Assembly (NCBI GenBank): GCA_022316685.1
Contig: JAKJHU010001078.1
Location: forward strand, 1 to 64,000
Source of the DNA: Progne subis subis
Lineage: Eukaryota > Chordata > Aves > Passeriformes > Hirundinidae
Reading direction: 5' to 3'
DNA: 64,000 nucleotides
Numbering within the stretch: the stretch's first letter is position 1; every line of letters begins with the position of its first letter. The position numbers were made by a program, and so were the translations under genes. Below are positions 7,671-58,245 of this stretch, in pieces. Below the pieces are notes generated by a model. The model did not search any database. It was not told the origin of the DNA and saw only the letters and a program-made list of their open reading frames with translations.

Positions 7671-8981
7671 CTAGTCTTCTTGAAACATTTTCTCATCTTG
7701 CTGCCTCTTTCTACAGATTTTTGTAGATGTCCCTTTTTGTGGCAATAAAAACAAGTGGGTCCTGTACCTTCTGGAGGTAGGACAAGAAGTTTGTAAGTGT
7801 CCTTTCTGGTGACAGGAAAAACACGTGGGTCTCGTATCCCCAGAGGTGGGACCTGCCTTTTTCTGTTGTTTGTTCTTTCCTGAGCGCTTCTCTGTATTCA
7901 TGGTTGTCTGTGTTTCCTTGACTGCTGCCATTAAAATCTGTGTTTTGTCTTTTGCCTCTCCTCATCTCTTCTCACATACACTTTCTGTGCTTCTCTTAAC
8001 AATTCCTGAAGCCCCCTATCCTGCCAATTTTCTACTTTTTCCAGCTTCTTCCTGATGTGCCCCCAGGACTTAGCTACAAATTGTGTTTTCAAAAGGACCT
8101 GTCCTGCTGCAGTGTTGGGGTCTACACCTGAATATAACTGCAAGGCTTTTCTTAGTCTTTCTAACCAGTCTGCCAGGGGTTCATCCTTCCCTTGGTGCTC
8201 ACTTAGAGCTTTCCTTATATTCTGCCCCTTGGGCACTGCTTCCCAGATTCCTCGGATTATCATCCACCGGAGATCACTCATATTCTGCCTGTGTCTTTCA
8301 TTCTGATTATTCCAACCTGGATCTTGCATAGGCCATTTCTGATGCCCCTGGTCTGGCCCCTGACATTCTCTATCCCAAACCCTCATTCCTGAATGTCTAA
8401 TCATTTCTCTTTCTTCCATGGTAAACAAGATTCCTAAGACAGACTGCAGTTCCACCCAGGTGTATATATTCAGCCCCAAGAACTGATCTAATCTCTCTGC
8501 CACTCCAAGAGGATCCTCTAGCAGCCTGCCCATCTCCTTCTTAAACTCCCTAACATCCCCTGTGTTCAGGGGAACACTCACATCACCAATAGGTCTCTGT
8601 TCTGGATTTGCCATTGGAACTTTTCTAAGCGGGTATAGTCCATCTTCCATTTTTGCTTCCCCATCCCATCATCACTTCTCCCTCCCCCCCTCTAGTTCTA
8701 TGTGCTACTGGCCCTCCTGAATAGGGGGTGTTTGCATTTACAGGAGGACCCTCGGGGGCTTGGGGTTGAACGGGCTGATTAGGTTGCCTATAAGGGGCGG
8801 GAGGTGATCTAACGGATCCTAGGGCTGTGTCTGTCTTTTTGGCTGCTTGCCCTCTGGTTTGTAAAGGATACAACAGATGACCTTGCTTCCTTGCCTTGAG
8901 TGACAAATTCACCTTTCCCCTGGGAAGCCACAGAGCAGCATATTCGCTTTCTTCCTGATTAAAAGGTTCTTTTGAATTCAT
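7671..8981 (-). pseudogene. gag: ERV-A gag pseudogene
   Basis: 8981-8625 carries the matrix/proline-rich part. 8650-7931 is an open 239-residue capsid piece of the gammaretroviral p30 type (PLRKVPM start, VYTW-like and MHR-like EPLADWLERLRKAL segments). 7931-7671 has the nucleocapsid zinc knuckle CFSCHQKGHLQTSC (CX2CX4HX4C). A second knuckle copy follows but is frameshifted. The matrix and capsid pieces overlap in different frames, showing at least one indel. It is homologous to ERV-C gag at 40,756-38,816. The myristoylation start is not seen. Confidence 0.88.
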
Positions 8982-18119: not shown

Positions 18120-18320
18120 GAGTCATTGAAAACCGATATAGTCACAGACAAAGACCCTCTGACTGATTAAAGTTCGAAAGTGGTATGTTTATTCACTGGC
18201 GGGCGGCACGGGAGTCATCTCCGAAAGGCGTGGCCACCCGCCGGTGAATAAACATACCACTCTCTAACTTTAATCAGTTACAGGGTCTTTGTCCGTGACT
18301 ATATCGGTTTTCAATGACTC
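18120..18320. repeat. LTR palindrome at the provirus/rDNA junction
   Basis: Arm 18,120-18,203 is the end of the ERV-B LTR. Arm 18,237-18,320 is its reverse complement with few mismatches. They are separated by 33 bp that continue the first LTR copy. The second arm stops within one base of the LTR terminus, and rDNA spacer starts at once. This is a head-to-head LTR junction able to form a cruciform. Confidence 0.93.
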
Positions 18321-19143: not shown

Positions 19144-19199
<56 letters not shown>

Positions 19200-19300
19200 T
19201 GAGAATTAATGTGAATTGCACGACACATTGATCATCACACTTCGAACGCACTTGTGGCCCCGGGTTCCTCCCGGGGCTACGCCTGTCTTGAGCGTCGCTT
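19144..19300 (+). rRNA. 5.8S rRNA pseudogene
   Basis: About 157 bases clearly matching vertebrate 5.8S rRNA, the small RNA that pairs with 28S in the large ribosomal subunit. Departures from the highly conserved sequence are visible: second base A instead of G, AGCTGTGAG for AGCTGCGAG, GCACGACAC for GCAGGACAC, a lost G in CATC(G)ACAC, CTTGTGGC for CTTGCGGC, and an extra T in TCTTGAGCG. Several are CpG decay. Such changes in an essentially invariant RNA mean a dead copy. Confidence 0.9.
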
Positions 19301-19955: not shown

Positions 19956-20386
19956 GCGCGCGGGGTGAGTGCGATCCGCGTGGCCCGCCTGGGCGCCGGG
20001 ACGCGCGTGCTCGCGCGTGGCGGCGACTGGACGGCGCCAGGCCCTTCCCGTGGATCCCCAGCTGCGGTGGGCGCCGCCCGCCCCCCCCTCCACCTGCCCT
20101 CTGCCTTGCCGCGGCCGGCGCCCCGGGGGCGGCCGCCGTCTTCGTCGCCGCGCGCCGCCGCCTCGTCCGGCTCCCCGCCGGGCGGGGTTCCCGCGGCGCG
20201 GTGGGCGGCCCGGCGCGGCCGTCGACCGGCGTCGGCCGAGCGGTTCGCGCGGGGGAGGGTCCCCGCGGGCCGGCGCCCCGCCTCGGCCGGCGCCTAGCAG
20301 CCGGCTTAGAACTGGTGCGGACCAGGGGAATCCGACTGTTTAATTAAAACAAAGCATCGCGAAGGCCCGAGGCGGGTGTTGACGCG

Positions 20387-20418
<32 letters not shown>

Positions 20419-20441
20419 AGTGAAGAAATTCAATGAAGCGT

Positions 20442-20474
<33 letters not shown>

Positions 20475-20484
20475 TCTCTTAAGG
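19956..20484 (+). rRNA. 28S rRNA fragment up to the R2 target site
   Basis: Contains the conserved GGCCCTTCCCGTGGATC block near 20,040, a GC-rich expansion segment, then the very conserved GCTTAGAACTGGTGCGGACC to GGAGTAACTATGACTCTCTTA stretch. The first roughly 2.5 kb of 28S is missing. Small differences from the vertebrate sequence (for example GAAGCGTGGG for GAAGCGCGGG) fit a decaying copy. At the R2 site TCTCTTA is duplicated (20,468-20,474 and 20,475-20,481) before AGG and the element. Confidence 0.88.
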
Positions 20485-20485
20485 T

Positions 20486-21170
20486 GATAAAATTAGTAAC
20501 CATTGGCTCCAATTTTATAGGCGCATACCTCACAGGAAACTCCTCACTTGCGTTACAACTCAGGGCCAACATTTACCCCACAAGAGAATTTCTCGCTCGG
20601 GGTAGACAGGATACGTACATCAAATCCTGTAGGCATTGCGATGCAGAAAACGAAACCTGCGCCCACATCATCGGTAACTGCCCAGTGACACAGGACGCTC
20701 GAATCAAGAGGCACAACAACATCTGCGAAATGCTTCTTGAGGAGGCAAAGAAGGCAGACTGGGTAGTGTTGAAGGAACCGCACATAAGGGACACCAGCAA
20801 GGAACTGTACAAACCAGATCTAATATTTGTGAAGGACGGTCGTGCACTTGTTGTCGGTGTGACAGTACAATACGAAGCAGAAAAAACAACGCTAGAGGCA
20901 GCTGCTGCAGAGAAGGTAGACAAGTACAAACATTTGGAAACCGAGGTACGAAACCTCACCAACGCAAAGGACGTTGTCTTTATGGGCTTTCCCCTCGGGG
21001 CGCGAGGGAAACGGTACCGCGGAAACTTTGAACTTTTAGGGGCCCTTGGCCTCTCCAAATCAAGACAAGAGTCAATTGCAAGGACTTTAACCACAGTTGC
21101 ACTCTTATCATCTGTGGACATTGTACATATGTTTGCCAGTAGGGCTAGACAGTTACGGAATTCAGACTAG
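20486..21170 (+). pseudogene. R2a endonuclease domain (C-terminal ORF fragment)
   Basis: Restriction-like endonuclease end of the R2 protein, which nicks 28S DNA. Visible: the linker IPHRKLL, the conserved YPTREFLARG, the CCHC knuckle CRHCDAENETCAHIIGNC, and the PD-(D/E)xK core KPDLIFVKDGRALVVGVTV. The second catalytic Asp, present in R2b as VVDVTV, is Gly here. A one-base insertion near 20,560 puts the first ~25 codons out of frame with the rest. After that the frame is open to the stop at 21,168. The ATG in 28S at 20,463 is accidental. Confidence 0.88.
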
Positions 21171-21507
21171 TATAGTATGTTTGTTTGCGTTGTTATAATT
21201 TTTATATTTTTGCATTTTCTTTACTGCATTGTAGGGGTGTTTTTTGGTAATATTTTTCTAGTTATTCTTGTATGTTTTAATTGTTCTTATTTTTTATATA
21301 TTTAATAATAAAGTAGATGGTAGCTGGGGCGTAGGGCAGCCACAAGCCAGTTAGGTAGCTGATAGTAATTAGGGACAGAATTTATTATTTCATAACGCGT
21401 CAATTACCACCCGATTTGGACCAATTTACCGGATTTGTCCAAGGTGGACGGGCCACCTTTACTTACCCCGGAAAAGGAGCATATATAATTTATATGTGTT
21501 CGAAAAA
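21171..21507 (+). other. R2a 3' UTR
   Basis: A/T-rich, then a conserved block CATAACGCGTC...GGTGGACGGGCCACCTTTACTTA that recurs at the R2b end (25,609-25,675). This element end is what the R2 protein binds to start reverse transcription. It ends in a short A run. Confidence 0.75.
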
Positions 21508-21543
21508 TAGCTTGAGAGAGCTAGTTACTAACTGGGCTTAGCT

Positions 21544-21608
21544 GCAGAAGTCACACCTCCACATGGTCCCGCCGGATGCCCGTAAAGGGTAACAAAGTTG
21601 ACTTCTGC
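21544..21608 (+). ncRNA. HDV-like self-cleaving ribozyme fold of R2b (core)
   Basis: P2 is a perfect 9-bp helix, GCAGAAGTC (21,544-21,552) with GACTTCTGC (21,600-21,608). P3 is ACC/GGT closing the loop TCCACAT. P4 is the hairpin CCC-GTAAA-GGG (21,579-21,589), followed by a joining strand AACAAAG with the candidate catalytic C at 21,593. The strand CCCGCCG (21,568-21,574) sits where the P1 3' side belongs. Its exact partner, CGGCGGG, is in 28S at 20,449-20,455, ~30 bases before the R2 site. R2 elements are known to carry such ribozymes to release their RNA from rRNA precursor. Here R2a separates the two P1 halves. Confidence 0.8.
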
Positions 21609-21847
21609 CCCAGCGTGAGCGAGGGTGCACTGGTTGCCCCCTCTCTATCGTCTGGCCTCGCCATCCAGCGGTAGTTTCACGACTCGCAGAAACAAGAGTT
21701 TCTTGGCGCGGCTTTTTGCTGTCGCCCGAAGCCTTGTCCACGGGCTAAGTTGGACACAGTCTGCAATTTGGTCGAGGGTTCCGACTGCAGACTTTGACAA
21801 CCCTCACTGGATTGTGACTTTGACTAAACGCCATCTTCTGTCAAACT

Positions 21848-22700
21848 ATGGTACAATCACTGACTTTACGATACGCGTCAACGGGCACTCAGACTGACCC
21901 ATTAGATCTGAGGGTCAAAGGGGCTGATATTCCACCTCCTCCGGTGGCGTCAGGTGAGGTTAAATTCGATCTGGTGTCTTTGGAGTTTGTAAACTCCAAC
22001 CTGATTTCTTTTGGTGGTTTCCATCTGGGTAACGCCAGGGAGTGTTTGGCCAAACTACCTGAACCATATGAGATCTTGCCTTTGGGCAGGTTCGGGATGT
22101 ACGTTCTGAGTGCGAAACAAGAGAGTCTGAAGAGTCTAAAACACCTGAGGCTCCACCGGTGATCAGCGGTGTTGCGACACTTATTGGAACACCTACTGTG
22201 TCCATCCCGGACAAAAATCCATCATGTCCACTCTGTATGACCCGGTTTACACGGATGCTGGGGCTGATTGACCATCTTAAACAGGCCCATGGGCACGAAA
22301 GATCTGGTTTAGATGCTCTAAGTGTGGGAAGCAAAATCTTAAGTACCACAGTATCGCCTGTCACTTCCCTCGGTGCAAAGGCGAAGTGTGTGTGGTTCCA
22401 AGAGGTGATTGGGTCTGTGAGGTGTGTTCACGTGGTTTTGCAACCAAGATTGGTCTGGCCCAACACAAGAGGCTGAAACATCCTCTTGTACGTAACGAGG
22501 AGCGGATTGTAGCCTCCCATCCCAAAGGGTCATCTTGAGAGGGGCCCACAAGAGGGTACGGACGGAAGAGGAGGAGGCTCTCCTGAGTCAATTGGTGGTG
22601 AAGTATGCTGGTAGCAGGAACATCAATCAGTTAATTATGGAGCATATACCATCAAAGACGGCCAAGCAGATTAGTGACAAATGACGCCTTCTGGTGAAAG
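21848..22700 (+). pseudogene. R2b N-terminal DNA-binding region
   Basis: Open from 21,848 to 22,162, then shifts frame. The first CCHH finger (CPLCMTRF...HLKQAHG) lies at about 22,228-22,295. A second (CGKQ...H...C) and third (CEVCSRGFATKIGLAQH) lie in another frame at about 22,325-22,480. A Myb-like segment (TEEEEALLSQLV...TAKQISDK) lies at 22,560-22,683 and ends at a TGA probably derived from CGA. This region would bind the 28S target. Several indels make it non-functional as read. Confidence 0.8.
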
Positions 22701-22803
22701 GTCCCTCTAAAAAGGTCCAACTTATACAGAGCGTCGAAAGGGGGAGGGAGGAGCCCCCCAGTCTGCTAAAGGCCCCGTAGAGGGACGCTTAAAGCTCCAT
22801 TAC

Positions 22804-24675
22804 GTGGATTCCATCAAACTGAGGCTATCGGCAGGCAGAGTCACCAGTTGCCAGGAAGCCTTCAAGAAAATATTAGATGGGCATGATCCGCAGGTGGTGG
22901 TAAATGAGGTTTATGAGAAGTTTCGGGATAGTCTGAATAAGCTCGGCCTAAAGCCCAGTGGTCCCAAGTCTCAAAGGTCATGTGGTCGTGATGCATCCAA
23001 GGTTAATACCAAATGGATGCAGAAAAGAGCTAAGAAGCGGGGGCAATATCTTCGTTATCAGCGAATGTTTCAGTTTCATAGAGGACGGTTGGCACGTGTT
23101 ATCTTGGATAACACGGAAACCCTGCAATGCCAGATACCAACTGGCATTGTCCACAATGCGTTTCAGGCAAGATGGGAACCATCTGGTGGTTTTATGGGTC
23201 TTGAAACTTTCCCTGTGTATAGGGATGCAGATAACACCATGTTTCAGGACCTGATTACAGAGAAAGAGATTGGTAAGAACTTGAATGAAATGCGTAAATC
23301 CTCCGCTCCTGGGCCTGATGGGATTACTCTGGGTCACATTATTACACTTGACCCTAAGTTCTCCTGGTTGAGTGAAATCTTCAACCTATGGCTTTTAACC
23401 GGAACTATTCCGGATGCACTTCGGGACTGTAGGACAGCTTTGATACCCAAGTCTACATGTGCCGAGAGACTTGGTGATATCAATAACTGGAGACCTATCA
23501 CCATTGGATCTGTGGTGTTTAGGTTGTTCTCCAGGATCGCTACGGCGAGGCTGTCACGTGCATGTCCCATCAACCCCAGGCAATGGGGTTTTATTTGTGC
23601 ATCCGGATGTTCTGAGAACTTGAAGCTGTTCCAGCTTCTTGTTAAATGTGCAAAACAGGAGCATCGAGATCTGGGGCACGTATTCGTGGACATTGCCAAG
23701 GCCTTTGACACTGTAAGTCATCAGCATATTATTGCGGGTCTAGTCGAGAGAGGGGTTGATGCCCACATTATTCATCTGGTAGGTGAGATGTACAGAAACA
23801 TCAAAACGTACATCATCACCAAAAAAGCGAAAACAGACCCAATTAACATCCGTTCTGGTGTCAAGCAGGGTGACCCCATGTCACCTCTGTTACTCAATTT
23901 GGCACTCGACCCTCTTCTATGTAAACTTGAGACAGAAGGTAAAGGGTTCCATCATGGAGGGTTTCAAGTTACGGCCATGGCTTTTGCGGACGATCTGGTG
24001 CTACTGAGCGACTCTTGGGACGGCATGCAATATAACATCCAGATCTTGGAGACCTTTTGTGAACTTACCGGTCTCCAGACTCAAGGGGAGAAATGCCACG
24101 GTTTTTACATCAAACCGACTAAGGACTCGTATACCATCAATGATTGTCCTGCCTGGCTGATTAAAGGGACTCCCCTTAACATGATCGACCCAGGAAGCTC
24201 AGAAAAATATCTTGGCATCCATATCGACCCCTGGGTGGGCTTTGCCGATTCAGACTTATCCAGGAAACTTGAAGACTGGCTCCATCGGATTAGTGACGCA
24301 CCACTCAAACCTTTCCAGAAGGTCGATATACTCAGGACCTATACCATCCCAAGGCTGATATATCTGGCCGACCATACCGAAGTAACATCTGGGCTCCTCA
24401 AATCCCTTGATCTATTAATAAGGAGAATGGTCAAGGAGTGGCTTCACCTTCCATCAAGTACCTGTGATGCCATCTTGTACTCAAAGTTTAAAGATGGAGG
24501 GCTCGGACTCATCAAATTGGCTGCGCTCTTACCAAGCATTCAAGCGCGAAGATTGCATAAACTGGCTCAATCTTCGGATGGTACTCTGGTTTCATTTTTG
24601 AAGGGTGAACATCTCGAGAGGATACACAAAAAACTGTGGGACGAGCAGGAGGAGTTAAGGAGTCCATCCCGCTGA
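22804..24675 (+). pseudogene. R2b reverse transcriptase domain
   Basis: 623 open codons, the longest intact retroelement domain in the window. RT motifs in order: SSAPGPDGI, FVDIAKAFDTVSH, GVKQGDPMSPLLLN, the catalytic FADDLVLL (codons near 23,980-24,005), and GLQTQGEKCHG. It synthesises element cDNA primed from the nicked 28S strand. The frame is in line with an upstream start only after frameshift and ends prematurely at 24,673 before the endonuclease, so it is the open middle of a broken ORF. The long open stretch suggests modest age. Confidence 0.9.
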
Positions 24676-25538
24676 TTTGGGAGCCCATCCCTGAGATAGA
24701 GTTTGTTACAGGAGAGGAAGCCTTGTCGGAATGGGAGGCTCCCCGTCCTCAGATACACCTTCCTAACTGTGTGATTGGCGGAAGGTGGAATTCAACAAAT
24801 GGAAAACAGCTGGTCGCTCAGGGCCATGGAATTGGGAACTTTGAGAACGATAGCATCAGTAATGGTTGGTTGGTGCATTACCGCAGCATCCCTCACAGGA
24901 AACTTATAACTGTGCTACAATTAGAGCGAATGTTTACCCTACACGTGAATTTCTGGCAAGGGGTAGACATGAGTGCTATGTAAGATCCTGTAGGCACTGT
25001 GGCGCCGATTATGAGACAACCGCCCAGTGCCATCGGGAATTGCCCAATCACGCAAGAAGCCAGAATAAAAAGACATAACTCCATCTGTGAAACTCTTAGC
25101 CGTGAGGCCAAGAGAGAAAAATTGGACAGTGTTCCAGGAACCACACTTGAGAGACGCACAAAATGAACTATATAAACCGATTTAATCTTTGTAAAGGAAG
25201 GGAAAGGCACTTGTAGTGGATGTGACAGTTCGATACGAGCATAGGCAACTCATCTTTAAAAGAGGCCGCTACCGAGAAGGCAGAGAAATACCAGCATCTC
25301 CTTCCTCAAATTCGTGGAACTTACTAACGCTACAACGGTCGAGTTCTTGGGCTTTCCCTTGGGAGCGCGGGGAAAGTGGTTCGAGAAGACCTCTGAGTTG
25401 CTACAGGCCCTGGGTCTCTCTAAAACGAGGCTAGGGAAGATAGCCCAGGCCCTGGCTTCCAGAGCGCTCTTCTCTTCCATTGACATTGTTCATATATTTA
25501 CTAGGAAAGCACGGGAGATTGTACCTTTGAACGAATAA
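24676..25538 (+). pseudogene. R2b linker and endonuclease region
   Basis: Continues the R2 protein in at least three frames: WEPIPEIEF..., then YPTREFLARG with a knuckle start CRHCGADYE (24,940-25,010), then VVDVTVRYE near 25,213-25,240 with the catalytic Asp intact, then FLGFPLGARGKWF to the natural stop at 25,536. Single-base indels, including one missing base near 24,915, break it. It is diverged from the same domain of R2a. Confidence 0.85.
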
Positions 25539-25714
25539 AGGCCCCTTCCCTGAGTGGTATCAGCTGGACAGATGGAATTGGTTTCGGGAGGGAGGGGTTC
25601 ATCCAATCATAACGCGTCGTTGCCCTTTTTGGGCATCAAATTCCAATCTGGACAGGTGGACGGGCCACCTATACTTAACCCGGAACAGAAACATAATTTT
25701 ATGTGTTTATAGAA
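25539..25714 (+). other. R2b 3' UTR
   Basis: Shorter than that of R2a. It shares the CATAACGCGTCGTT and GGTGGACGGGCCACCTATACTTAACCCGG blocks, the latter able to form a stem. It ends exactly at the 28S junction. Confidence 0.75.
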
Positions 25715-25759
<45 letters not shown>

Positions 25760-25836
25760 GGACGAGATTCCCACTGTCCCTACCTACTATCCAGCGAAAC
25801 CACAGCCAAGGGAACGGGCTTAGCGGAATCAGCGGG
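25715..25836 (+). rRNA. 28S rRNA fragment downstream of the R2 site
   Basis: TAGCCAAATGCCTCGTCATC to GGAATCAGCGGG matches conserved 28S except for a few bases (GGATGGACG for GGATGAACG, GGGCTTAGC for GGGCTTGGC). It then breaks off into a minisatellite, so the last part of 28S is missing too. Confidence 0.92.
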
Positions 25837-33687: not shown

Positions 33688-34299
33688 TGTTCTGGAAAAA
33701 AATAAGAGAGAGTCAGAGACTTGCTGGTTTTGTATGTTTCTTTATTATCAAGCTTGGCCTTGGGGGAGAGCTTGCTTGCTCCCTTGGCAACGTGGAGGAG
33801 GAGGTACACACAGCTTCGCTTCACAGCAAAGCTGGGGACTCCCACCCCCCCTCACGGGCTTTTTCCCCTTGCCGGGGAGTCCGTTTCACGTCGCTGATCA
33901 GGGGTCATCCAGCGATGGGGGACTCCTTCTCAGGTCACGGCGACTAAATGAAGCTGCTTCGGCGGACCCCCGTACTTCTTGCACTAGTCTAAAATGCGAC
34001 TACAGTCCTGGATTTTACTTTGGTTCCCTGCTTTTTAGAGTTCTTGTTCTTGAGTTGTTCCCAGTATTCCAGCGTTCTTTTTATTTGCATATTCAGACAC
34101 TATCCGGCAAATGGGAGCAGAGATACAGGTAATAAGGTGAATTCTTAATTAACAAACAAGTAAATAAGGTGATAAATCAGTATTAAAACAGGAATAAGGC
34201 AAATTCTTTATACAGAACTAGCATTAACAATCTTAATGGAATTACTTAACAATTAAGTAACTAAAACATAGATTATTTGAATAGTATTTATTTATAACA
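33688..34299 (-). repeat. ERV-C 3' LTR
   Basis: Plus strand TGTTCTGGAAAA ... ATTTATAACA, with a polypurine-tract complement (ACTCCCCCCTCTATTTC) at 34,300-34,318 just inside. On the minus strand AATAAA lies at 33,741-33,746, and an octamer-plus-TATA-like ATGCAAATAAAAAG lies near 34,078-34,092. Confidence 0.95.
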
Positions 34300-34318
34300 A
34301 CTCCCCCCTCTATTTCTT
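34300..34318 (-). other. ERV-C polypurine tract
   Basis: Purine run AGAGGGGGGAGT on the minus strand touching the 3' LTR. Confidence 0.85.
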
Positions 34319-35260: not shown

Positions 35261-37503
35261 TTATTTCTTTTTAAAGGCTAATTTCAAGTCTTTCGGGTGT
35301 GGTGTTACTGTCCACTCGGTTTCATCCGGTGAGGGTGCTGAACTCGGGTTCTCTCCAGGAGGGGGTACTGGCCCTTTAACTCTGGTGATGTGGGTCCATC
35401 CTTTTTCCTTAGTGCGCACTGCTGTGTGAGTTGTTAACAGTACTTGGTAGGGACCTTCAAACTTCGGGGTCAGCGGGGTATTAGTCCACGTTTTGATCAA
35501 TACCCGATCTCCAGGATTGATATTATGCACATTTGCATCCAAAGGGGAAGTTTGAGGAAGATAGCCTTTCTTTCTGAGATTTTCTAGGGTTTGTCCAATG
35601 GTTTTTAGATATTTTCTAGTGATTTCCTCTCCTTCCAGGTAGTCTTTAGAACTATAAGGAGATAACAAAAAGGGAAGCCCAAATAACATTTCATATGGTG
35701 ACACTCCTAGATCTGCTCGTGGCTGTGTTCTGATTCGTAGTAATGCTAGGGGTAAGCATTTAAGCCAATTTAGTTGAGTTTCTGCTATTAGTTTAGTCAG
35801 TACATTTTTAATGGTTTTGTTCATCCTTTCTACTCTGCCTGAGCTTTGGGGATGCCATAGGGTGTGTAACCTCCATTTTATCCCCAAGGCTTGTGTTACC
35901 TGTTGTAGAATTTGTGCTGTGAAATGTGGCCCTCTGTCTGAATCAATATTATTTATCAGCCCATACCGAGGGAGGATATCTTCTAATATTATTTTTGTTA
36001 CTACTTCTGCTGTTTCCTTTTTGTAGGGAATGCCTCTACCCAATGGGTAAGGTGATCTATGATCACTAACAAGTGTTTGTAACCTTGGACAGGGGGCATC
36101 TCAGTAAAATCAATTTGCACATTCTGGAAGGGCCTTAAGGCTAACTCCCTCCCTCCAGGCTCAGTTTTTCTCATGACTTTTTGATTGATTTTCTGACATA
36201 TTATACATCCCTGAGTAACTGCTTTTGCTAATTTTTGTACTCTAATACATAGGTTTTCCCTTAGGAAATGGTCACATAACCCCTGGGTTCCCCAGTGGGT
36301 TAAATTATGTATTTCTGTAAGTATTTTTCTGGCTAGGGCTTTATTTAAGAATTTCCGTCCGTCAGCTGTTAACCACACTCCGTGTTTCCCCTGGTGTAAT
36401 CCTAATTCTTTTATTGCTTTCTGCTCTTTTTTACTAAACACTTGCTCTATCCTTTCTTCTTCTTTTCTTGGTATTTTTTCTAATTTGAGGATTTTTACTG
36501 GTTCTCCTGGTTCTAAAGCTGCTTCTCTGGCTGTTTTATCAGCTAACTGGTTTCCCCTTGTCTCGGGCATATCTCCCTTTTGATGTCCTTTTATGTGAAC
36601 TACTGCAATTTCTACTGGTTTTTGTAAAGATTTTAACACTGACTTTATTAATTCTGTGTGTATTAAGTTTTTCCCTTTTGAATTTAAATATCTCCGTCCT
36701 TCCCAAATTTTCCCAAATGTGTGCACTATACCAAAGGCATATCTAGAGTCTGTGTAAATAGTCCCTCGGTCATCTTTAAGTAAGTCTAGCCCTCTCTTTA
36801 GTGCATATATTTCACAGCACTGCACTGACCAATTACTTGGTAACTTTCCCTTTTCTAAAACTTTCATTTTCTCTCCCTCAATTACAGAGTATCCGGATAT
36901 TCTTTTCCCTTCCACCACTCGGGATGACCCATCTGTGAACAACACCCTCCCATATGGAAGGGGTGTATCCTCTAAATCTTCTCTTACTTTTGTCTGCATA
37001 TCAATGAGTTCTAGGCAATGGTGTTCTATTTCTTCAGTGGGCTCACCAGAGAGAAATTGAGCTGGATTTAGGCTTTTTGATGTTGTTAGTTCTAGGTTAT
37101 TTGAATTTATCAGTATAATTTCATATTTTAGGATTCTAGAATCTGTGAGCCACTTTTGAGCTCTTTGACTTAAGATTGTTTTCAAATCATGTGGAGTATG
37201 TATCTTTATCTTTCCCTGTAATGTTAACTTTTGAGCTTCTTCTATTAAAATAGCTGCAGCTGCAACTGCTTGGAGACAAGCCGGCCATCCCCTAGCAACC
37301 GGATCTAACAGTTTTGATAAAAATGCTACAGGTTTTCGGTATCCTCCCCATTCTTGGGTTAAAACTCCGTATGCTATCCCTTCCTCAGTGTTTACAAATA
37401 AATCAAACTCCTTTTTAAGATCTGGTAAGCTTAAAACTGGTGCTGAGGATAATTTCTCTTTTAGATCTTGCAGCTGCCTCTCGTCACTCTCTGTCCAATT
37501 CAT
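35261..37503 (-). pseudogene. pol: ERV-C pol: RNase H and integrase
   Basis: 37,503-36,001 is open for 500 codons: connection domain, RNase H with catalytic aspartates in LFTDGSS, IYTDSRYAFG and NQLADKTARE, then the integrase zinc site HNLTHWG ... CIICQK, and the first catalytic Asp in VQIDFTEMP. A small indel at 36,001-36,043 shifts to 36,043-35,261, with the second Asp (DSDRGPHF), the Glu (GRVERMNKT), and a C-terminal GPYQVLL/ITRVKGP domain. All DDE residues are present across the two frames. RNase H removes RNA from hybrids; integrase joins viral DNA to the host chromosome. Confidence 0.92.
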
Positions 37504-38240
37504 TGGTTCCTGGTCTATTAATTTATCATAAAGAAATTTGACCCCTTGAGTGTACTTATCTATCCAGTGCTTGCAGTATCCAAACAGGCCTAGAAGTTTC
37601 CTTATGTCTCTCTTAGTTTATGGAGGTGATATAGACACTATTCCTGAAATTCTTGCAGGGCTTAACCTTTTACTCCCCTTTCCGATTATGTGTCCTAAAT
37701 AAGTGACTTCATTTTCTACAAACTGTAGTTTACTCTGAGATACTTTTAACCCCTTTTCTCCAAGAAAGTTTAGAAGTTGTATACTTACATCTTTAACTTC
37801 TTTTTCTTTCTCCCCTGATATTAATAAATCATCCACGTATTGCAGAATTTGAACTCCTTCTTTGGGACTAAACTGTTCTAATAATGTTTCTAGGGCCTGT
37901 CCGAAGATATTTGGCGATTCCGTATACCCCTGTGGTAACCGGGTCCACCTTAGCTGTTGTTTCCTTCCCCTGTCTGGATGTTCCCATTCAAAGGCGAACC
38001 AATCCCTACACTCTTCTGCTAGGGGACATGCCCAAAAAGCATCCTTTAAGTCTATCACTGTGAACCAGGTATGCTCCCTTGGAATTTTACTCAGCAAGGT
38101 ATAGGGGTTAGGTACTACTGGGTGTCGAGCAATAGTTCTTTTATTTATTTCTCTCAAATCCTGGACTAATCTAAACTTTCCCTCATCTTTCTTTATGGCT
38201 AATATAGGGGTGTTATGAGGGGACATACACGGTTCTAAAA
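37504..38240 (-). pseudogene. pol: ERV-C pol: reverse transcriptase
   Basis: 38,226-37,618 is open and carries RT motifs VIDLKDAFWACPL, RLPQGYTESP and the catalytic ILQYVDDLLISG at about 37,815-37,845, then the VTYLGHIIG thumb entry. A TAA (37,618-37,620) stops it, but the same frame continues to 37,503 and joins the RNase H part. The link to protease needs a frameshift near 38,250. RT copies the viral RNA into DNA. Confidence 0.92.
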
Positions 38241-38260
38241 TATTTTCTTTTAAAAGATGC

Positions 38261-38818
38261 TCAATTACTGAAGCTAGTTAGCCCTTTCTTTCCTTCTGGT
38301 GACATTGGGTATTGCTTAACTCTGATGGCGGGGGTATCTTTTTGCATTTCTATCTTAATGGGAGGGATATCTAAACACCCATATTTTCCCTCTGTAGCCC
38401 ACACTTCTGGATTTGTCTCTTGTATATCCCCTTGGGTCAGTTTCATGATATGCACAACCATTTTTCCGTCTTTTGGGATAACTCCTACCCCGAGCTGCAC
38501 TTGTAAGTCTCTGCCTAGTAAATTGGTTTCTGTATGTGGTAAATAAAGAAAATCAGCTACACAGTGCTTTGAGTTCCCTTTAATCTCTACTCCTTCAACT
38601 ATTAATGCTCGAAAGGGCCTCCCTTCAGCCCCTAACACTTCACAAGTTTTTGTCCTGATTGTTACCCCTGTTGGTAATTTCCTTAAACTCGATCTATCAG
38701 CTCCTGTGTCTACTAAGAATTCATATTCTTCACTTTGGGGCCCCACATCAAAGTTTACTAGAGGCTCATCTTGTTGTTCTATTGGGTCCCCTATTTTATA
38801 GAGCCTCTGACACCCCTA
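38261..38818 (-). pseudogene. pro: ERV-C protease
   Basis: Retroviral aspartic protease with intact FLVDTGADRSSL active site and LLGRDLQVQL second motif. It lies in the same frame as gag, immediately after the TAG at 38,816-38,818, with G as the next base. This is the gammaretroviral stop-codon readthrough layout, which yields a Gag-Pol fusion. It runs on into a part resembling the RT N-terminus and then hits a stop at 38,261. Confidence 0.92.
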
Positions 38819-40756
38819 ATCCTCCCCTTTCAGCACCCTCTCCAGGGCATCTTGCTCCCTTGCAATAGCTTCATCAAGTGATAATTTCTTACAATCCCTT
38901 TTTAAATGCCCTATTTCACCACAGTAATAACAAGTTCTATTCTCTCCTGGGTTACTTCTTTTCAAATTCACCCATGGTGGTACTATGGGTGACTTTGGTT
39001 CTTTAAATGAGGGTCTTGGTCCTCCCTCAATAGATTTCAAGGAGGAGTTTTTCTGGTTTTCTGCTACTCCAGTACTTTCTCTTGCTACAGCTACCATAAT
39101 GCGAGCCTTGGCTTTAGCTTTTTCTTCTTCTCTCCTCAGGTAAACTCTGAAGGCTTCTTTTCATAATTCATTAATACTTTTCTCCTGCCAATCTTCAATT
39201 TTTTCTCATTTTCTCCGTATATCTGGCCATGACTTTGTTACAAACTGCACTTTTAGAATTACTTGTGCCTCAGGACTATCAGGGTCTATGCTTGAATAGA
39301 ATTGAAAATTTCTTTTTAATTGATTTAGCCAAGTGGCAGGAGTCTCATCTTTTTCTTGGGACCCATCAAAAGCTAATTTAGTATTATTCCCTCTGGGGAC
39401 AGATTCTCTTATACCTCTTACTATCAAGGACCTATAGTCTCTCATATTTTGTCTTTCTTCTTCTCGATTTGGGTCCCACCCTGGGTCAGTTATCGGTAAT
39501 TTATGATCTCCAGGTGGCCCCAACCTATTTTCCCTTTCCCAGATTCTGATACTTGCTGTTCTAATCATTCGTATTTCCTCAGGGGAGAACAAGATGTTTA
39601 ATATAGAATTCAACTCTCCCCATGTATAAACATTGGGCCCAAGGAATTGGTCTACCTGTGTGGCACTACCTATGGGATCTTCAACTAAATTTCCTAGCTC
39701 TTTCTTAAATCCTCTTACTTCAGAGGCTGTTAATGGGGCATTTACAAATCCCACTCCTCCAATTACTCCTCCCATAGGCACTTCCCTGAGGGGAAAAAGT
39801 CTTTCTGGCTTTAAGGCTTTTGACCTTGTGTTACAATAGGGTCCTACACTCACATTATTAACTGATAACACTGTCTGAGTTACAAATTCCTGGGGAATTC
39901 CAGGAGAACGGGATGACTCACGGGAGTCTGCAGGGGTTTTGGTTAACTCCCAATTAGGAGGTGGCAGGGGAATTACTGTAGGTGAGGGGGAGGTAGTAAA
40001 ATCTGGAGGGGGAGAAACAGAGGATGGTACTGTGGGAGGAAGGGGGGCTAGGGAAGAGGTTGTGTTTTGGGAGACTGAAGGGGTTATAACTGGGGCTAAA
40101 GAATATTGACTGTTGGAAGGAGGTGGCAAAGGGGCTGTTGGGAGAGAAGGGGGAGAAGGTACTAAGGACTGGGGAGGAGAGGTGTTAAGGGGGGGTGATG
40201 ATGGAACCACTGGGGGAAGAGGAGGAGAGGGTTCTGAAGGAGTTTGAGTTTGACTCGGGGAAGTTAGTAGGGGAACTGGGACAGGATTTTGAGGGACTTG
40301 GGGCACCTCTGGGTAAATTGGAGGGGATAAATGGTTTAAAGGGTCCCATCTTTGATTCGTTTCTGTTCTTTCCTCTTTCTGTTCTTTTCTTTCACACTTT
40401 TCTTTTTCTTTTAATTTGCAGACTTTTATATTCTCTTTACTCGTGGCTCTCTTTTGCCAACAAGCAGCATAAGCTAACTGGTTTACGTCTGGATCTTCCT
40501 GAGTTCTTAGGTAGTGGTTTAACTGATAGCACATCCACTCATCATGTGTTCCAAACCATGGCCACTCTCCTGGTAATTTTAATTTTGGCCAGACTTCTGT
40601 GCAATAAAACACCATTTTAACCTGATCTAGTCCTTTTGTGGCCTCTAAAGAATCCCATTTAGCTAAAAGTTGTTCTAAGGGACTACCGGGTGGAATACTC
40701 TTTACTTTGTTATTCTCCTTTTGGGATTTCTTTTTCTTACTAGTACATTGTCCCAT
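38816..40756 (-). pseudogene. gag: ERV-C gag (two in-frame stops)
   Basis: Starts MGQCTSKKKK: Gly-2 for myristoylation plus a basic patch for membrane binding. Matrix covers about residues 1-130, followed by a long proline-rich linker with a PPIY late-domain motif near residue 145. A p30-type capsid begins around residue 310 (PLREVPM, QFLGPNVYTW). A nucleocapsid with one zinc knuckle CYYCGEIGHLKRDC (near 38,900) ends the protein. The frame is the same from 40,756 to the TAG at 38,816 except for TGA codons at 39,206 and about 39,163, both plausible CGA decay. Roughly 646 codons in all. Gag forms the virus particle. Confidence 0.93.
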
Positions 40757-42128
40757 TTTCTTTAAACTGAAAAAAATTCAAAGGTGCCCTTTACTGACTG
40801 GCAACACAGGGTTTTTTTAAGCAAAAAAAATTCTTCAGCTTTTCTCCCTTTACTTCAAATCTCCTGACTTAATTCTTGAACACTTCAACATAAAACTCCT
40901 AAACTTTATGCTTTTCTACTCTTTCCTACACTTTTGCTTTCATTAGGGAACAAATTCTCCCTCTTTCTACTCACTTTCTCTAACCTTCCTCACTTTCTTG
41001 GACGCTCACACTTTACTTACCCCAGGGGCTCAGACTCTCTTCTGACCCCTTTGAGGTGAGTCCTAATGACCTCACCCCCTATGTACCCCCGCGCCTTGCC
41101 TCACCCCTGAGACTCTGGACACGCTTTGCGGCGCACGACAGGGTCCCTAGTACTGGCATCCCCTTCCGGGCCCCAGGACCTTCCCACGCCTGAGCCCCCG
41201 CCGGGCCGGACACCTTCAGTCCGAACCCCGGACTAGACTGCCCTGTCACTAGCACCGTCCCCCTCTTCACTTTTTGAAACGGAGGTAAGAGGTCAAGACT
41301 CCGTACAGGTTACCTGGGGGGGTATCCCTTCCTTGTTTCCAAGGATCAACCCCAGCAGGGCCCGACCCCTTTGCCTTCCACCAGGACTGGCTTGACTACT
41401 TCTCCCCAATGAAGCAGCCTCGGCAAGAGGGATGAGTGTGTGTGTGCAGGATGCCCGCCTTGCCTCCAAGCTGACTCCCCACCCCGGTGTCCTCGGGCTA
41501 TGGGTTTACGGCCTCCTCCCTGAGACCGCGGCAGCACACCCTCTCCGGTGCGTCTGGCTCAGTCCTGGGAAGCAGGGACTCTCATGAGCTCTCGGCACCC
41601 GCAGTGTCTGGGGACACCCTGTCAACCCTGGTACGGTTTTCCCACCCCTCCAGGGACTCTAAACCCTCCTAGGCTACTCTAGCCTTTAAGGGGGGGGACT
41701 TGCCCCCAGTGCGTGCCACTCACACTTTGTTTTCCCCTGCACGCCCAGGGGAGGGGTCTTTCTGCCCCCAATGCGTGCCACTCACACTCTGTTTTCCCCT
41801 GCACGCCCAGGGGGGGGTCTTTCTGCCCCTAAGGAGACGCCTCACTCACTAGTTTCTCTCGCTTCCCCCTTTTCCTGGCCGGCCCTCTCGCGGGAGTTCC
41901 GAAACCGCAGTACCGAGGGGTCCACACTCATTTCTGGGGGTCCGAGCTGCCGGCCCCCGACTCTCTCACACTCCCACTCGCACGTCTCCTTTACCCGCCT
42001 CCGGAATGCTCACCCTCCGGCGCTCCTCCTCGTTGCCGGTCCCAGGCTGCTCCCGCTTCGCCAGCTGTCCCGGAGGTCCGAAGGGCGAGCGGCCGTCCCG
42101 TCCTCAGTCCCTCTTCAGGCGTGGCCAA
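40757..42128 (-). other. ERV-C 5' leader
   Basis: About 1.4 kb without a supported gene, expected to hold packaging and splice signals. It includes a 62-bp tandem duplication: TGCCCCCARTGCGTGCCACT at 41,701 and 41,763, each followed by the same CACGCCCAGGGG sequence. Confidence 0.7.
41701..41824. repeat. 62-bp tandem duplication in ERV-C leader
   Basis: Two direct copies, 41,701-41,762 and 41,763-41,824, differing at a few bases and in the length of a G run. Confidence 0.9.
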
Positions 42129-42151: not shown

Positions 42152-42763
42152 TGTTCTGGAAAAAATCAGAGAGAGTCAGAGACTTGCTGGTTTTGTATGT
42201 TTCTTTATTATCAAGCTTGGCCTTGGGGGAGAGCTTGCTTGCTCCCTTGGCAACGTGGAGGAGGAGGTACACACAGCTTCGCTTCACAGCAAAGCTGGGG
42301 ACTCCCACCCCCCCTCACGGGCTTTTTCCCCTTGCCGGGGAGTCCGTTTCGCTTCGCTGATCAGGGGTCATCCAGCGATGGGGGACTCCTTCTCAGGTCA
42401 CGGCGACTAAATAAAGCTGCTTCGGCGGACCCCTGTACTTTTTGTACTAGTCTAAAATGTGACTACAGTCCTGGATTTTACTTTGGTTCCTTGCTTTTCA
42501 GAGTCTCTTGTTCTTGAGTTGTTCCCAGAATTCCAGTGTTCTTTTTATTTGCATATTCAGACACTATCCGGCAAATGGGAGCAGAGATACAGGTAATAAG
42601 GTGAATTCTTAATTAACAAACAAGTAAATAAAGTGATAAATCAGTATTAAAACAGGAATAAGGCAAATTCTTTATACAGAACTAGCATTAACAATCTTAA
42701 TGGAATTACTTAACAATTAAGTAACTAAAACATAGATTATTTGAATAGAATTTATTTATAACA
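42152..42763 (-). repeat. ERV-C 5' LTR
   Basis: Same length as the 3' LTR. It carries the same ATGCAAATAAAAAG promoter-like element near 42,542-42,556 on the minus strand and the AATAAA signal. Transcription would run towards lower coordinates. Confidence 0.95.
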
Positions 42764-42875
42764 AGAGCATGGTGCTAGTATCACTGAGGTTGGGGGTTCA
42801 ATCCCTGTGTGGCCCGTTCACTTAAGAGTTGGACTTGTGGGTCCCTTCCAACCAAGAATATTCTTTGCATTTGTC
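42764..42875 (+). mobile_element. tRNA-derived SINE (TguSINE1-like), 5'-truncated
   Basis: AGAGCATGGTGCTAGTATC, a B box (GGGTTCAATCCC), a CACTTAAGAGTTGGAC linker and a CR1-like tail TGGGTCCCTTCCAACC. This passerine SINE joins a tRNA-Ile-like head to a CR1 tail. The head with the A box is missing because the ERV-C LTR starts there. Confidence 0.8.
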
Positions 42876-43135: not shown

Positions 43136-45748
43136 GAGGGGAATTCAGAGCCTTTTTCTCCCCTGTGGGCTGAGGGTCTGCATTTCCAATGGCCCTGCAG
43201 CTGCCAAAGGGGCCTTTTTTGCTCAGCTGAGAACAGTTCTGCTAGTGCCTGTCCTGAACCTGCTTTTCCTACAATTGTCCCCAAAGAATCCTAATTATTT
43301 GCAGCCCCAGGTCTTGTGTGCATGCAGGTGTGAGAACTGAGGGATGGAACAGTTCTGCTGTGGGGAAATTCTCATTTTCTTGATTGTTTTTTACTTGCAG
43401 TTATTTTGATTGTTTCTTTGGGTGTTTTGTTCTTTGTTTTGGGATTTTGTTGTTTTTGGGGGGAACTTTTTTGGGGAGTTTTAGGTTTTGTTTTGTTGTT
43501 TTTTTAATTGGGGGTGGAGGGTTATTTGTTTTGGTATGGGGTGTATCTGTTGTTTTTTGCTTCTGTTTTGTTTTGTTTTTAAATTAACTCCCCCTGGAAG
43601 CCCTGGGCAGAGCTCTGTAACTCTGTGTGACACTTGCCTGTGGCACTGTGGAGGTGGCCAAGGGGACCTTCCCCGAGCTGTGTGCACAGCAGTGCACATC
43701 AGCCCAGGCCGGGGGTGCTCAGTGCCCGCTCAGTTTTGCTGTCTGGCTGTGGCTCTGGATGCTTCCCTTGGAGCGTCCCACAGCATACTCCTAGATAAGC
43801 TGGCAGCCCATGGCTTGGACAGGAGCACTCTTTGCTGGGTTAGGAACTGGCTGGATGGCTGGGCCCAGAGAGTGATGGTGAATGGTACAGCATCCAGCTG
43901 GAGACCAGTCACCAGTGGTGTCCCTCAGGGGTCTGTATTGGGACCAGTTCTATTTAATATTTTTATAGACGACATGGATGAGAGCATGGAGTCCTTCATT
44001 AGTAAATTTGCAGACGACACTAAGCTGGGAGCTTGTGTTGATCCATTGGAAGGGAGGAGGGCCCTGCAGAGAGACCTAGATCGGTTGGATGAATGGGCAG
44101 AGTCCAACAGCATGAAGTTTAATAAGTCTAAGTGTCGAGTTCTACATTTTGGCCACAAAAATCCCCGACAGCGTTACAGGCTGGGGACAGTGTGGCTGGA
44201 CAGTGTTCAGGTGGAAAGGGACCTGGGGGTGCTGGTCGACAGCCGGATGGATATGAGCCAGCAATGTGCCTTGGTGGCCAAGAAGGCCAATGGCATCCTG
44301 GCCTGCATTAGGAATTGTGTGACCAGCAGGAGTAGGGAGGTCATTCTTCCCCTGTACTTGGCACTGGTGAGACCACATCTTGAGTACTGTGTCCAGTTCT
44401 GGGCCCCTCAGTTTAGGAAGGATATTGAGATGCTTGAGCGTGTCCAGAGGAGGGCAACGAGGCTGGTGAGGGGCTTGGAACACAAGCCCTATGAGGAACA
44501 TTTGAAGGAGCTGGGATTGTTTAGCCTGGAGAAGAGGAGGCTTAGAGGTGACAGTTATTACTCTCTACAACTTCCTGAAGGGAGGTTGTAAACAGGTGGG
44601 GGTCGGTCTCTTCCACCGGGCAGCAACTGACAGAACAAGGGGACACAGTCTCAAGCTACGTCAGGGAAGGTACAGGTTAGATATTAGGAAAAAAAATTTT
44701 CACTGAAAGAATAATAAAGCACTGGAATTGTCTTCCCAGGGAGGTGGTGGAGTCACCATCTCTGGATGTGTTTAAAAAAAGACTGGACATGGCACTTAGT
44801 GCTATGGTCTAGTTGAGGTGTTAAGGCATAGGTTGGACTTGATGATCTTAGAGGTCTCTTCCAACCTCATTATTCTGTGATTCTGTGATTCTGTCTCCAG
44901 GCAGGGAACGTTGGAGCTGTCACCACCGTGGTGTCACAGAGAGGGGAACGCTGGGGCTGTGCCGCTCCTGCCCCAGCCCCAAGAGCTCTGCCAGCGCCTG
45001 GAGGAGACACAAAGACTGAGCCCAAGGGAGAGAACTGCAGAAGGGGCTGAGCTGGGAGGGAGGCAGCGGGATCATGAAGTCCAGGCCCTGGCCCTGCACA
45101 GACAGCCCAACAGTGGCAGCCTGGGCATTCCCGGGAGCGGTGTCCAAAGGCTCCTGGAGCTGCCACAGCCTCGCAGCTGTGACCATTCCCTGGGGAGCCT
45201 GGTGAGTGGTCAAGGCCCCTGCAGGGGAAGAAGCTTTTGCTGGTCTCCAGCCTGCAGCTGGCCTGGCCCAGCCCCAGCCGTTCCCTGGGGTGCATTCCCT
45301 GCTGGCCCCGGGGCAGAAGTCTCAGCTGCCCCTGCTGCTGTCCCTGGGCAGGAGGCGCAGCCCCCGGGGAGCTCTGAGCTCCGTCTGCTGCTGGGCTGCG
45401 GCCGAAGCGAGCCAGTGCCGGCAGAGCTCTGGGGAAAGGTCCCGGCCCTGGCTTGGGGCTGGGCCAGAGCCCAGGGAGCAAATCAACTTGCAGCTGCTGC
45501 CCCAGAGCAGGGAAGAGCAGGAATTGCTGGCTGGGAGAGACTCTTGCCAAGGGCCTGCAGTGTCAGGACACAGGCCATGGCTGGACACTGCTTGGGGCCA
45601 GGGTGAGCTGGGATGTGGGAATGGACTTGTTCCCTGGGAGGGCGGTGGGGCCCTGGCACAGAGTGGGCGGAAAAGCTGTGGCTGCCCTGGAATGGCTGGA
45701 AGTGTCCAAGGGCTGGTTGGAGGGGACTTCCTGCCCAGAAGGCAAGGG
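43136..45748. repeat. segmental duplicate copy A (contains a CR1)
   Basis: Parallels 46,643-47,755 (copy B): shared ...CTTTTTCTCCCCTGTGG, GCACATCAGCCCAGGCCGGGGG, GGAACGTTGGAGCTGTC, ACTGCAGAAGGGGCTGAGCTGG. Copy A has a G/T-rich stretch at 43,380-43,590 and a CR1 at 43,776-44,893 that B lacks. Open frames here (for example 44,911-45,606) are not conserved in frame with B and are not taken as genes. Confidence 0.8.
43776..44893 (+). mobile_element. CR1 LINE, 5'-truncated, with long RT fragment
   Basis: The end of CR1 ORF2: RT motifs [15 protein letters not shown] and FADDTKLG, then the conserved C-terminal region ([37 protein letters not shown]), open from the insertion edge to 44,591, where a frameshift occurs. 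The 3' end carries TTGGACTTGATGATCTTAGAGG and tandem ATTCTGTG units. The unoccupied site is preserved at 47,150/47,151. The long open RT stretch marks this as the youngest CR1 in the window. Confidence 0.95.
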
Positions 45749-57287: not shown

Positions 57288-57310
57288 GACTCCATGGCCA
57301 GAGTGAAGAA

Positions 57311-58245
57311 ATGTCCAACAGCAGCTCCATCAGCCACTTCCTCCTGCTGCCATTGGCAGACACGTGGCAGCTGCAGCTCCTGCACTTCTGCCTCTTCCTG
57401 GGCATCTCCCTGGCTGCCCTCCTGGCCAACGGCCTCATCATCAGCGCCGTAGCCTGCGGCCACCTCCTGTACATGCCCATGTTCTTCTTCCTGCTCAACC
57501 TGGCCCTCACCGACCTGGGCTCCATCCTCACCACTGTCCCCAAAGCCATGCACAATTCCCTCTGGGACACCAGGACCATCTCCTACACAGGATGTGCTGC
57601 ACAGATCTTTTTTTTTTTGTTTTCTGTGCTGCAACAGAGTTTTATCTCCTGACCCTCATGTGCTATGACCACTACGTGTCCATCTGCAAACCCCTGCACT
57701 ACGGGACCCTCCTAGGCAGCAGAGCTTGTGCCCACATGGCAGCAGCTGCCTGGGCCAGTGGCTTTCTCAATGCTCTCATGCAAACAGCCAATACGTTTTC
57801 CCTGCCCCTGTGCCATGGCAATGCCCTGGGCCAATTCTTCTGTGAAATCCCACACATCCTCAAACTCTCCTGCTCACGCTCCTACCTCAGGGAATATGGA
57901 CTCATTGTATTTTCCATCTGTTTTCAATTTGGTTGTTTTGTGTTCATTGTTTTCTCCTATGTGCAGATCTTCAGGGCTGTGCTGAGGATCGCCTCTGAGC
58001 AGGGAAGGCACAAAGCCTTTTCCACCTGCCTCCCTCACCTGGTTGTCCTCTCCCTGTTCCTCAGCACTGGCTTTTTTGCCTATCTGAAACCCCCCTCCAT
58101 CTCCTCCCCATCCCTGGATCTTTCACTGTCAGTTCTTTATTCCATGGTGCCTCCAGCCCTGAACCCCCTCATCTACAGCCTGAGGAACCAGGAGCTCAAG
58201 GCTGCAGTGTGGAGACTGATGACTGGATGGTTTCAGGAACATTAA
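57311..58245 (+). pseudogene. OR14: olfactory receptor, OR14-type, one frameshift
   Basis: A seven-transmembrane odorant receptor of the class expanded in birds. The start MSNSSSISHFLLLPLAD carries the N-glycosylation site near the N-terminus. TM1-TM3 landmarks: LANGLII, MFFFLLNLALTDLGS and the conserved Cys in YTGCAAQ. Then, in another frame: MCYDHYVSICKPLHY (the usual DRY is DHY), the KAFSTCLPHL block before TM6, and PPALNPLIYSLRNQELK in TM7. The total of ~311 codons is normal for the family. A run of 11 T at 57,608-57,618 is one base short (or two long), shifting the frame in TM3. Nothing else is broken, so it is a recent pseudogene, a polymorphism, or a homopolymer sequencing error. Confidence 0.93.

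Follow-up and report, generated by a model that had tools for sequence, protein, structure and literature searches.

A 2016 survey of R2 retrotransposons describes birds as keeping a single R2 lineage, and a 2026 survey places avian R2 proteins in lineage A only, with two subclusters set largely by whether or not the host is a passerine (PMC13188248). At initiation, the A-clade R2 proteins of zebra finch (TaGu) and turtle (PlaMe), with three zinc fingers and a Myb domain, bind the DNA upstream of the insertion site, and PlaMe R2 also holds upstream DNA after second-strand nicking (PMC12180492). Avian R2 proteins need an RNA tail complementary to the primer, for which 4 nt are sufficient (PMC11371274, PMC12222951). 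Tandem insertion at a 28S site is described for the R1 elements of Drosophila, in which new copies enter stretches of target that resident R1s have retained at their 5′ ends and, in D. ananassae, the R1A tandems all lie upstream of R1B (PMC2718515). Here we analyze a stretch of 64,000 nucleotides from Progne subis subis (contig JAKJHU010001078.1, positions 1 to 64,000; hereafter, the window), in which two R2 elements of different lineages, a truncated copy (R2a) and a near full-length one (R2b), occupy a single R2 target site in 28S ribosomal DNA (rDNA). We assign a rough probability of 0.62 to an order of events in which R2b inserted first; R2a would then have entered at the 28S/R2b boundary, through target-primed reverse transcription, with the upstream DNA still intact and TAGC as the 4-nt primer homology.

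Along the locus the order is 28S, R2a, TAGC, R2b and 28S again from TAGCC, with R2a and R2b arranged head to tail; the canonical target, here and below, is the Rfam consensus for 28S, and negative positions count back from the nick.

19,145–19,297, plus strand: degenerate copy of 5.8S ribosomal RNA (rRNA) (Rfam RF00002, 121.9 bits).
20,289–20,484, plus strand: 28S fragment upstream of the R2 site (Rfam RF02543 from 20,319, model position 2121; sequence).
20,450–20,456, plus strand: GGCGGGA, 28S −28 to −22, which in R2s cleaved at −28 supplies the 5′ strand of ribozyme stem P1 (position exact; role by analogy with PMC3774820).
20,485–21,507, plus strand: R2a, 5′-truncated, with part of the C-terminal (zinc-knuckle/endonuclease) domain and the 3′ untranslated region (UTR).
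21,508–21,511, plus strand: TAGC, separating R2a from R2b and matching the four 28S bases with which the target begins downstream of the nick (sequence).
21,512–25,714, plus strand: R2b, near full-length, with a 5′ region holding elements like those of an HDV ribozyme, zinc-finger and Myb stretches, reverse transcriptase (RT), endonuclease and 3′ UTR.
21,511–21,529, plus strand: 5′ end of R2b, a near-inverted copy of 28S −22 to −2 (alignment, shuffles, folds).
21,544–21,608, plus strand: R2b ribozyme elements P2 and P1′ (pairing comparison).
22,804–24,675, plus strand: open reading frame of 623 amino acids over the R2b RT region, with a FADD motif (homology to R2Tg; PF00078).
25,715–25,836, plus strand: 28S fragment downstream of the R2 site, beginning TAGCCAAATG (Rfam RF02543, 105 bits, aligned to 25,823).

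The upstream 28S fragment has an approximate left edge, positions 20,289–20,318 being assigned from what we take to be the vertebrate 28S sequence. This piece (165.5 bits in Rfam) is canonical up to 20,474 (GACTCTCTTA) and continues with TCTCTTAAGG at 20,475–20,484, so that the 28S at the 5′ joint of R2a holds 7 extra bases, a 7-nt microduplication (TCTCTTA repeated) ending at 20,484. Short repeats of this same 28S stretch are listed among R2 5′ junctions elsewhere (PMC3774820). The coding sequence of R2a starts at 20,485, or at 20,483 if the GG common to the 28S AAGG is counted, and this GG may also serve as the start of the first R2a codon. The 3′ UTR of R2a ends with TCGAAAAA at 21,507, R2b ends with TATAGAA at 25,714, and the 3′ ends of both are directly followed by TAGC, in the second case as part of the 28S TAGCC that resumes at 25,715; the downstream 28S runs to 25,836, where it abuts an ACTGGGA-type repeat. 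These junctions, at 20,474/20,484 and 25,715, and the 28S/R2a/TAGC/R2b/28S layout are those of the original prediction, and R2a does meet R2b at a TAGC (21,508–21,511) that matches the start of the downstream target TAGCC, as it had noted. Its further proposal that the two elements have common 3′ UTR sequence agrees with a 59-column alignment at 83% identity near their 3′ ends.

Both elements are R2s by their insertion at AAGG^TAGCC with TAGC after the 3′ end, and by protein homology to R2, in the RT for R2b and in the C-terminal endonuclease domain for R2a. R2a matches the C-terminal portion of R2Tg, the zebra finch R2 protein (PDB 9nl3/9dou; E 8e-106 and 1e-105, the former 8.2e-106 to 9nl3), and the translation of 20,483–21,167 shares 196 of 228 residues (86.0%) with a protein named Acridotheres tristis (P0007); its zf-RVT match falls under the Pfam cut-off. 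The RT frame of R2b matches R2Tg, the R2 protein of 9nl3, with E 2.9e-262, and PF00078 with 101 bits. The three N-terminal zinc fingers and Myb domain of the R2 A-clade (avian R2A3) can be traced in R2b only, R2a being without that part: the fingers are recognizable by eye as CCHH, CCHC and CCHH patterns in pieces of three frames, and the zinc-finger and Myb regions are 47–79% identical to two aligned avian R2 proteins, P0001 and P0033, while in Pfam every zinc-finger and Myb match scores below its curated threshold (20.2 bits for the best Myb match, against 24.4). Neither element has the intact open reading frame of an active R2. The coding region of R2a is truncated and carries one frameshift, near 20,550, and zero stops, and that of R2b has accumulated 16 frameshifts and one stop: 6 frameshifts and the stop in the N-terminal part (two reference proteins combined), 10 frameshifts and zero stops in 24,562–25,520, and none of either inside the open RT region. 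In addition, the endonuclease motif of R2a at 20,856–20,858 reads VVGVTV, against VVDVTV in R2Tg and R2b, and the aspartate of this motif is presumably a catalytic residue. Both copies now look dead.

The two elements differ strongly in the endonuclease, as had been claimed from the sequence. Over 224 shared endonuclease codons their identity is 62.5% at the protein level and 64.4% at the DNA level, with a proportion of differing silent sites (pS) of 0.76, which is saturated and beyond correction, against 0.24 at replacement sites (pN); by this contrast, most of the divergence arose under constraint. In three endonuclease trees R2a and R2b fall into separate oscine groups, with support of 97–100/91–99 for the smallest and next sets holding them. 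All tree rows were picked by hand, unnamed, short or duplicate rows being mostly excluded: the 40-row tree contains 4 plus 32 of 57 protein matches with R2Tg, R2Pm, R2a and R2b; the 26-row tree, 3 plus 20 protein matches with R2Tg, R2a and R2b; and the 36-row tree, 3 plus 24 plus 6 of 10 additional protein matches with the same three. In the last of these, R2a groups with R2Tg and rows from Acridotheres, Corvus (P0121), Zosterops (P0130), Lonchura and Chloebia (P0170) (100/98), and R2b with rows from Corvus (P0139), Gymnorhina, Zosterops (P0099/P0183) and Chloebia (P0010/P0132) (100/99). The RT tree, built from R2Tg, R2b and 25 of the 120 matches listed (164 in all), joins R2b with Chloebia, Zosterops, Haemorhous, Turdus and one unnamed row (100/99), apart from a group of R2Tg, Ficedula, Acridotheres and one unnamed row (99/98). 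Forcing R2a and R2b into one clade costs 103 log-likelihood units in the 26-row tree and is rejected by the approximately unbiased (AU) test (p-AU 4e-73).

R2a is therefore a member of lineage I (R2Tg-type) and R2b of lineage II, two separate oscine-passerine R2 lineages. The two lineages of the original prediction are upheld, the tree that it had put forward as a check having failed to unite the elements, and the idea that R2b is merely a decayed element of the R2a type is rejected by the lineage placement together with the pS and pN values. Each lineage includes rows from Corvus, Zosterops and Chloebia, and the AU test rejects each species set as one clade; these three sets were chosen after the 40-row tree had been seen, so the p-values are not those of a planned test, and the lineage-I Chloebia row is partial (43–45% of columns filled) and the lineage-I Zosterops row sits on a fairly long end branch (0.35–0.37). 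The three genera appear to carry both lineages. Among the proteins compared, R2 shows a further split inside songbirds, with both branches in the three named genera and in this window; the available portions of the 2016 and 2026 surveys hold no mention of it that we found, and it may be recorded elsewhere in them. The oscine lineages may or may not have separated before the suboscine branch (p-AU 0.20, 36-row tree).

The 5′ end of R2b bears on how the two elements came together. Its P1′ sequence, TCCCGCC (21,567–21,573), is a perfect complement (7/7) of 28S −28 to −22, and the two strands of P2, GCAGAAGTCA (21,544) and TGACTTCTGC (21,599), pair at 10 of 10 positions. The perfect P1′ match predicts cleavage of the R2b transcript at −28, the site proposed for zebra finch R2 (PMC3774820) and predicted for a sparrow R2 ribozyme that self-cleaved in vitro (PMC11331408). 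No match between the R2b 5′ end and the Rfam ribozymes was obtained, only three sub-threshold matches to unrelated families. The conserved ribozyme (L3) motif reads CCUCCACAUGG and differs from CCUCCUCGUGG at 2 of 11 positions, one change being a G-to-A at what we take to be the position equivalent to one altered in Nasonia R2. A G-to-A of this kind abolished cleavage in Nasonia R2 (PMC3774820).

Upstream of these elements, the first bases of R2b align to the inverse of 28S −22 to −2 with 18 identities, 1 mismatch and 2 gaps in 21 columns. The score of 23 was reached by none of 5000 shuffles, which preserve base composition only and the best of which, at 22, comes close to it. Of 18,242 40-mers in the window, those around the two places in question excluded, 3 reach 23 and all overlap the 28S target itself. 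The modelled hairpin of 28S and the R2b 5′ end has an energy of −23.2 kcal/mol with TAGC (z −3.8; 0 of 200 shuffles fold as well) and −18.5 kcal/mol without it (z −2.9; 2 of 200). Because of the near-inverted copy and its predicted fold, the 5′ end of R2b looks made to adjoin the 28S target. In viral contigs, a set in which records of this genome may be missing, zero related loci and zero copies of the R2b 5′ motif were found.

The sequence of events that we favor would begin with a lineage-II R2b that entered the 28S R2 site with its 5′ end almost complete. Its 5′ boundary would keep or carry TAGC beside intact upstream 28S, which would leave the target for an avian R2 protein still whole: the upstream DNA to which the zinc fingers and Myb domain bind, the site of the nick behind AAGG, and four bases able to pair with the R2 RNA tail. 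A lineage-I R2 would then nick the bottom strand at the 28S/R2b boundary and prime reverse transcription of its own RNA, which would halt within the C-terminal region and so leave a 5′-truncated R2a; the new 5′ end would be joined to upstream 28S, possibly with a two-base overlap (GG) and the short 28S microduplication. Prior insertion of R2b is favored because upstream DNA is intact at the 28S/R2b boundary and not at the R2a/28S boundary. This is a difficulty for the reverse order, in which R2a came first and R2b followed at the R2a/28S boundary with duplication of TAGC, since the upstream recognition DNA would then have been the R2a 3′ UTR. TAGC does lie on both sides of R2b, like a 4-bp target-site duplication, and putative off-target insertions of avian R2 resembled the rDNA site little beyond the downstream primer match (PMC11371274), although the off-target set of R2Tg also matched the 28S target at bases 19–25 bp upstream (PMC12222951).

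A second line of evidence comes from the ribozyme. If R2b arrived late, or if its RNA was joined to R2a by a template jump, cleavage of that RNA at −28 would be expected to leave 28 nt of rRNA (28S −28 to −1) between the two elements. A search of 21,481–21,660 for a direct copy of 28S −28 to −1 before R2b found nothing above chance, the best match being reached by 625 of 1000 shuffles, and this too favors R2b as the first arrival and weighs against the reverse order. It also weighs against a single event of template jumping, in which R2b RNA would be copied from the 28S nick and the enzyme would then jump to the 3′ end of a UAGC-tailed R2a RNA, copied in part before attachment upstream. Such a jump would yield precisely the order 5′-R2a-TAGC-R2b-3′; R2 proteins perform it in vitro, and head-to-tail copies were the major class of 3′ junctions in the scarce cells obtained with endonuclease-dead proteins (PMC11371274). 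The 3′ tail, however, is seemingly left uncopied in target-primed synthesis, though a jump may differ in this respect (PMC11371274), and both lineages would have had to be active at once.

Third, over the same domain R2b has 7 frameshifts and R2a has 1 (one-sided binomial, 9/256, calculated by hand), and the greater damage to R2b favors its earlier arrival, whereas template jumping expects equal ages and the reverse order would make the less damaged element the older one. We regard template jumping as unlikely, and the reverse order as slightly more so.

The joint itself speaks to two further explanations. An assembly or gap-filling artefact may have fused two R2-bearing pieces of rDNA: assemblies are considered unreliable for R2 within rDNA (PMC13188248), and the damage to R2b is clustered and comprises 16 shifts of one or two bases but a single stop, the pattern expected of unpolished long reads. 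Yet R2a followed by ordinary 28S would agree with the observed joint for 4 bases only, too few for an overlap-based misjoin, the joint falls at the ends of both elements, and the Rfam-aligned 28S stretches are free of indels except for the 7-nt duplication; an artefact is improbable, to nearly the same degree as template jumping. It is very improbable that two units of an rDNA array, one 28S-R2a and the other 28S-R2b, recombined and were later dispersed: array units do recombine and the fragment here is rearranged (no 18S, no 28S 5′ part), but only 4 bp of common sequence is available at a joint that lies on the termini of both elements.

Insertion of R2a at the 28S/R2b junction after R2b, as originally predicted, is thus the best supported reading, by A-clade biochemistry, the missing −28 to −1 copy and the frameshift counts, and it is still something that we infer. 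Several observations weigh against it. The frameshift contrast is weak and based on small numbers. Damage to R2b is uneven, with 0 frameshifts in the 1.8-kb RT region and 10, without a stop, in the final 0.96 kb; part of this damage could reflect sequencing error instead of age, which would inflate the apparent age of R2b. Ribozyme cleavage at −28 should produce a clean AAGG/R2b joint without TAGC, so that the TAGC needs an explanation of its own, and its presence at the R2b boundary before R2a arrived is again what we infer, the normal 5′ junction of a lineage-II element not having been seen. Finally, the ribozyme motif occupies nucleotides 37–47 in the zebra finch element and lies 8 nt further in (12 counting TAGC) in R2b, which makes the exact 5′ end of R2b uncertain.

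A further reading, which we offer tentatively and consider doubtful, is that lineage-II R2s carry TAGC and an inverted copy of upstream 28S built into their 5′ ends, such that each insertion re-creates a complete avian R2 target and the gene stays open to further R2s. If this is true, occupancy of the site would give a 28S gene no protection, rival R2 lineages could stack on genes already disabled, and a hairpin made by the inverted copy and rRNA would lie between ribozyme stems P1 and P2. Repeat hits on an occupied site bear on the number of copies per gene and on the coexistence of rival R2 families, and avian R2 proteins are under development for gene placement in human rDNA.

What the original prediction called an rDNA unit does stop and resume at the R2 site, but it is a degenerate rDNA fragment. 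At Rfam gathering thresholds the 64-kb window has one 5.8S match and one large subunit (LSU) match, which starts at model position 2121; neither 18S nor LSU model positions 1–2120 gave a match, and an intact rDNA array unit is rejected on these grounds. The piece looks like a decayed copy, because the 5.8S differs from what we take to be the vertebrate sequence by single-base indels and CpG-type C-to-T changes. Matches to MIR841 and mir-1990 near the rDNA are far under their gathering scores and were taken as chance. At the left edge of this GC-rich piece, 18,120–18,320 forms a near-palindrome, some 200 bp long and 85% self-complementary, which may be a fold-back marking a rearrangement breakpoint.

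Elsewhere in the window, retrovirus-like pieces lie on the minus strand at 7,934–8,668 and 35,264–40,777 (Gag p30, RT, RNase H and integrase matches, some under Pfam cut-offs), a further open RT-domain frame at 43,485–44,588 (PF00078, 65 bits) and an olfactory-receptor-like open frame at 57,307–58,242 (7tm_4, 106 bits). A 613-bp direct repeat (33,688–34,300 and 42,152–42,764) has 97% identity, the highest among the window self-matches listed over 150 bp.

A literature search for R2 tandems, with subscription papers mostly outside its reach, yielded a single paper, on R1 and R2 of Drosophila. Defective R2s at the 28S site are known as R2/R1 hybrids and as degenerate replicating R2s, and these, by the descriptions available, are not pairs of neighboring R2s from different lineages with clean ends (PMC3414825, PMC4370867). 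The R2s of sow bug, earwig and sea squirt resemble R2b in having 28S-derived sequence at their 5′ ends, but those junctions are described as duplications (PMC3774820), whereas at the R2b 5′ end the upstream target is copied in near-inverted form. R2Tg (R2-1_TG) and other avian A-clade (R2A3) R2s are like the elements described here in 28S site, RT, C-terminal endonuclease, zinc-finger and Myb stretches and a ribozyme stem matched to 28S −28, and R2a belongs to the same oscine lineage as R2Tg; the locus departs from the R2Tg type in that R2b is of the second oscine lineage, two elements share one site and both copies are damaged. Tandem R1 elements of Drosophila belong to another element family at another 28S site, with a kept 14-bp duplication where the R2a/R2b joint has only 4 bp, but they offer a precedent for the arrangement favored here, two lineages on one site with the new element placed on the 5′ side of the resident through kept target sequence (PMC2718515).

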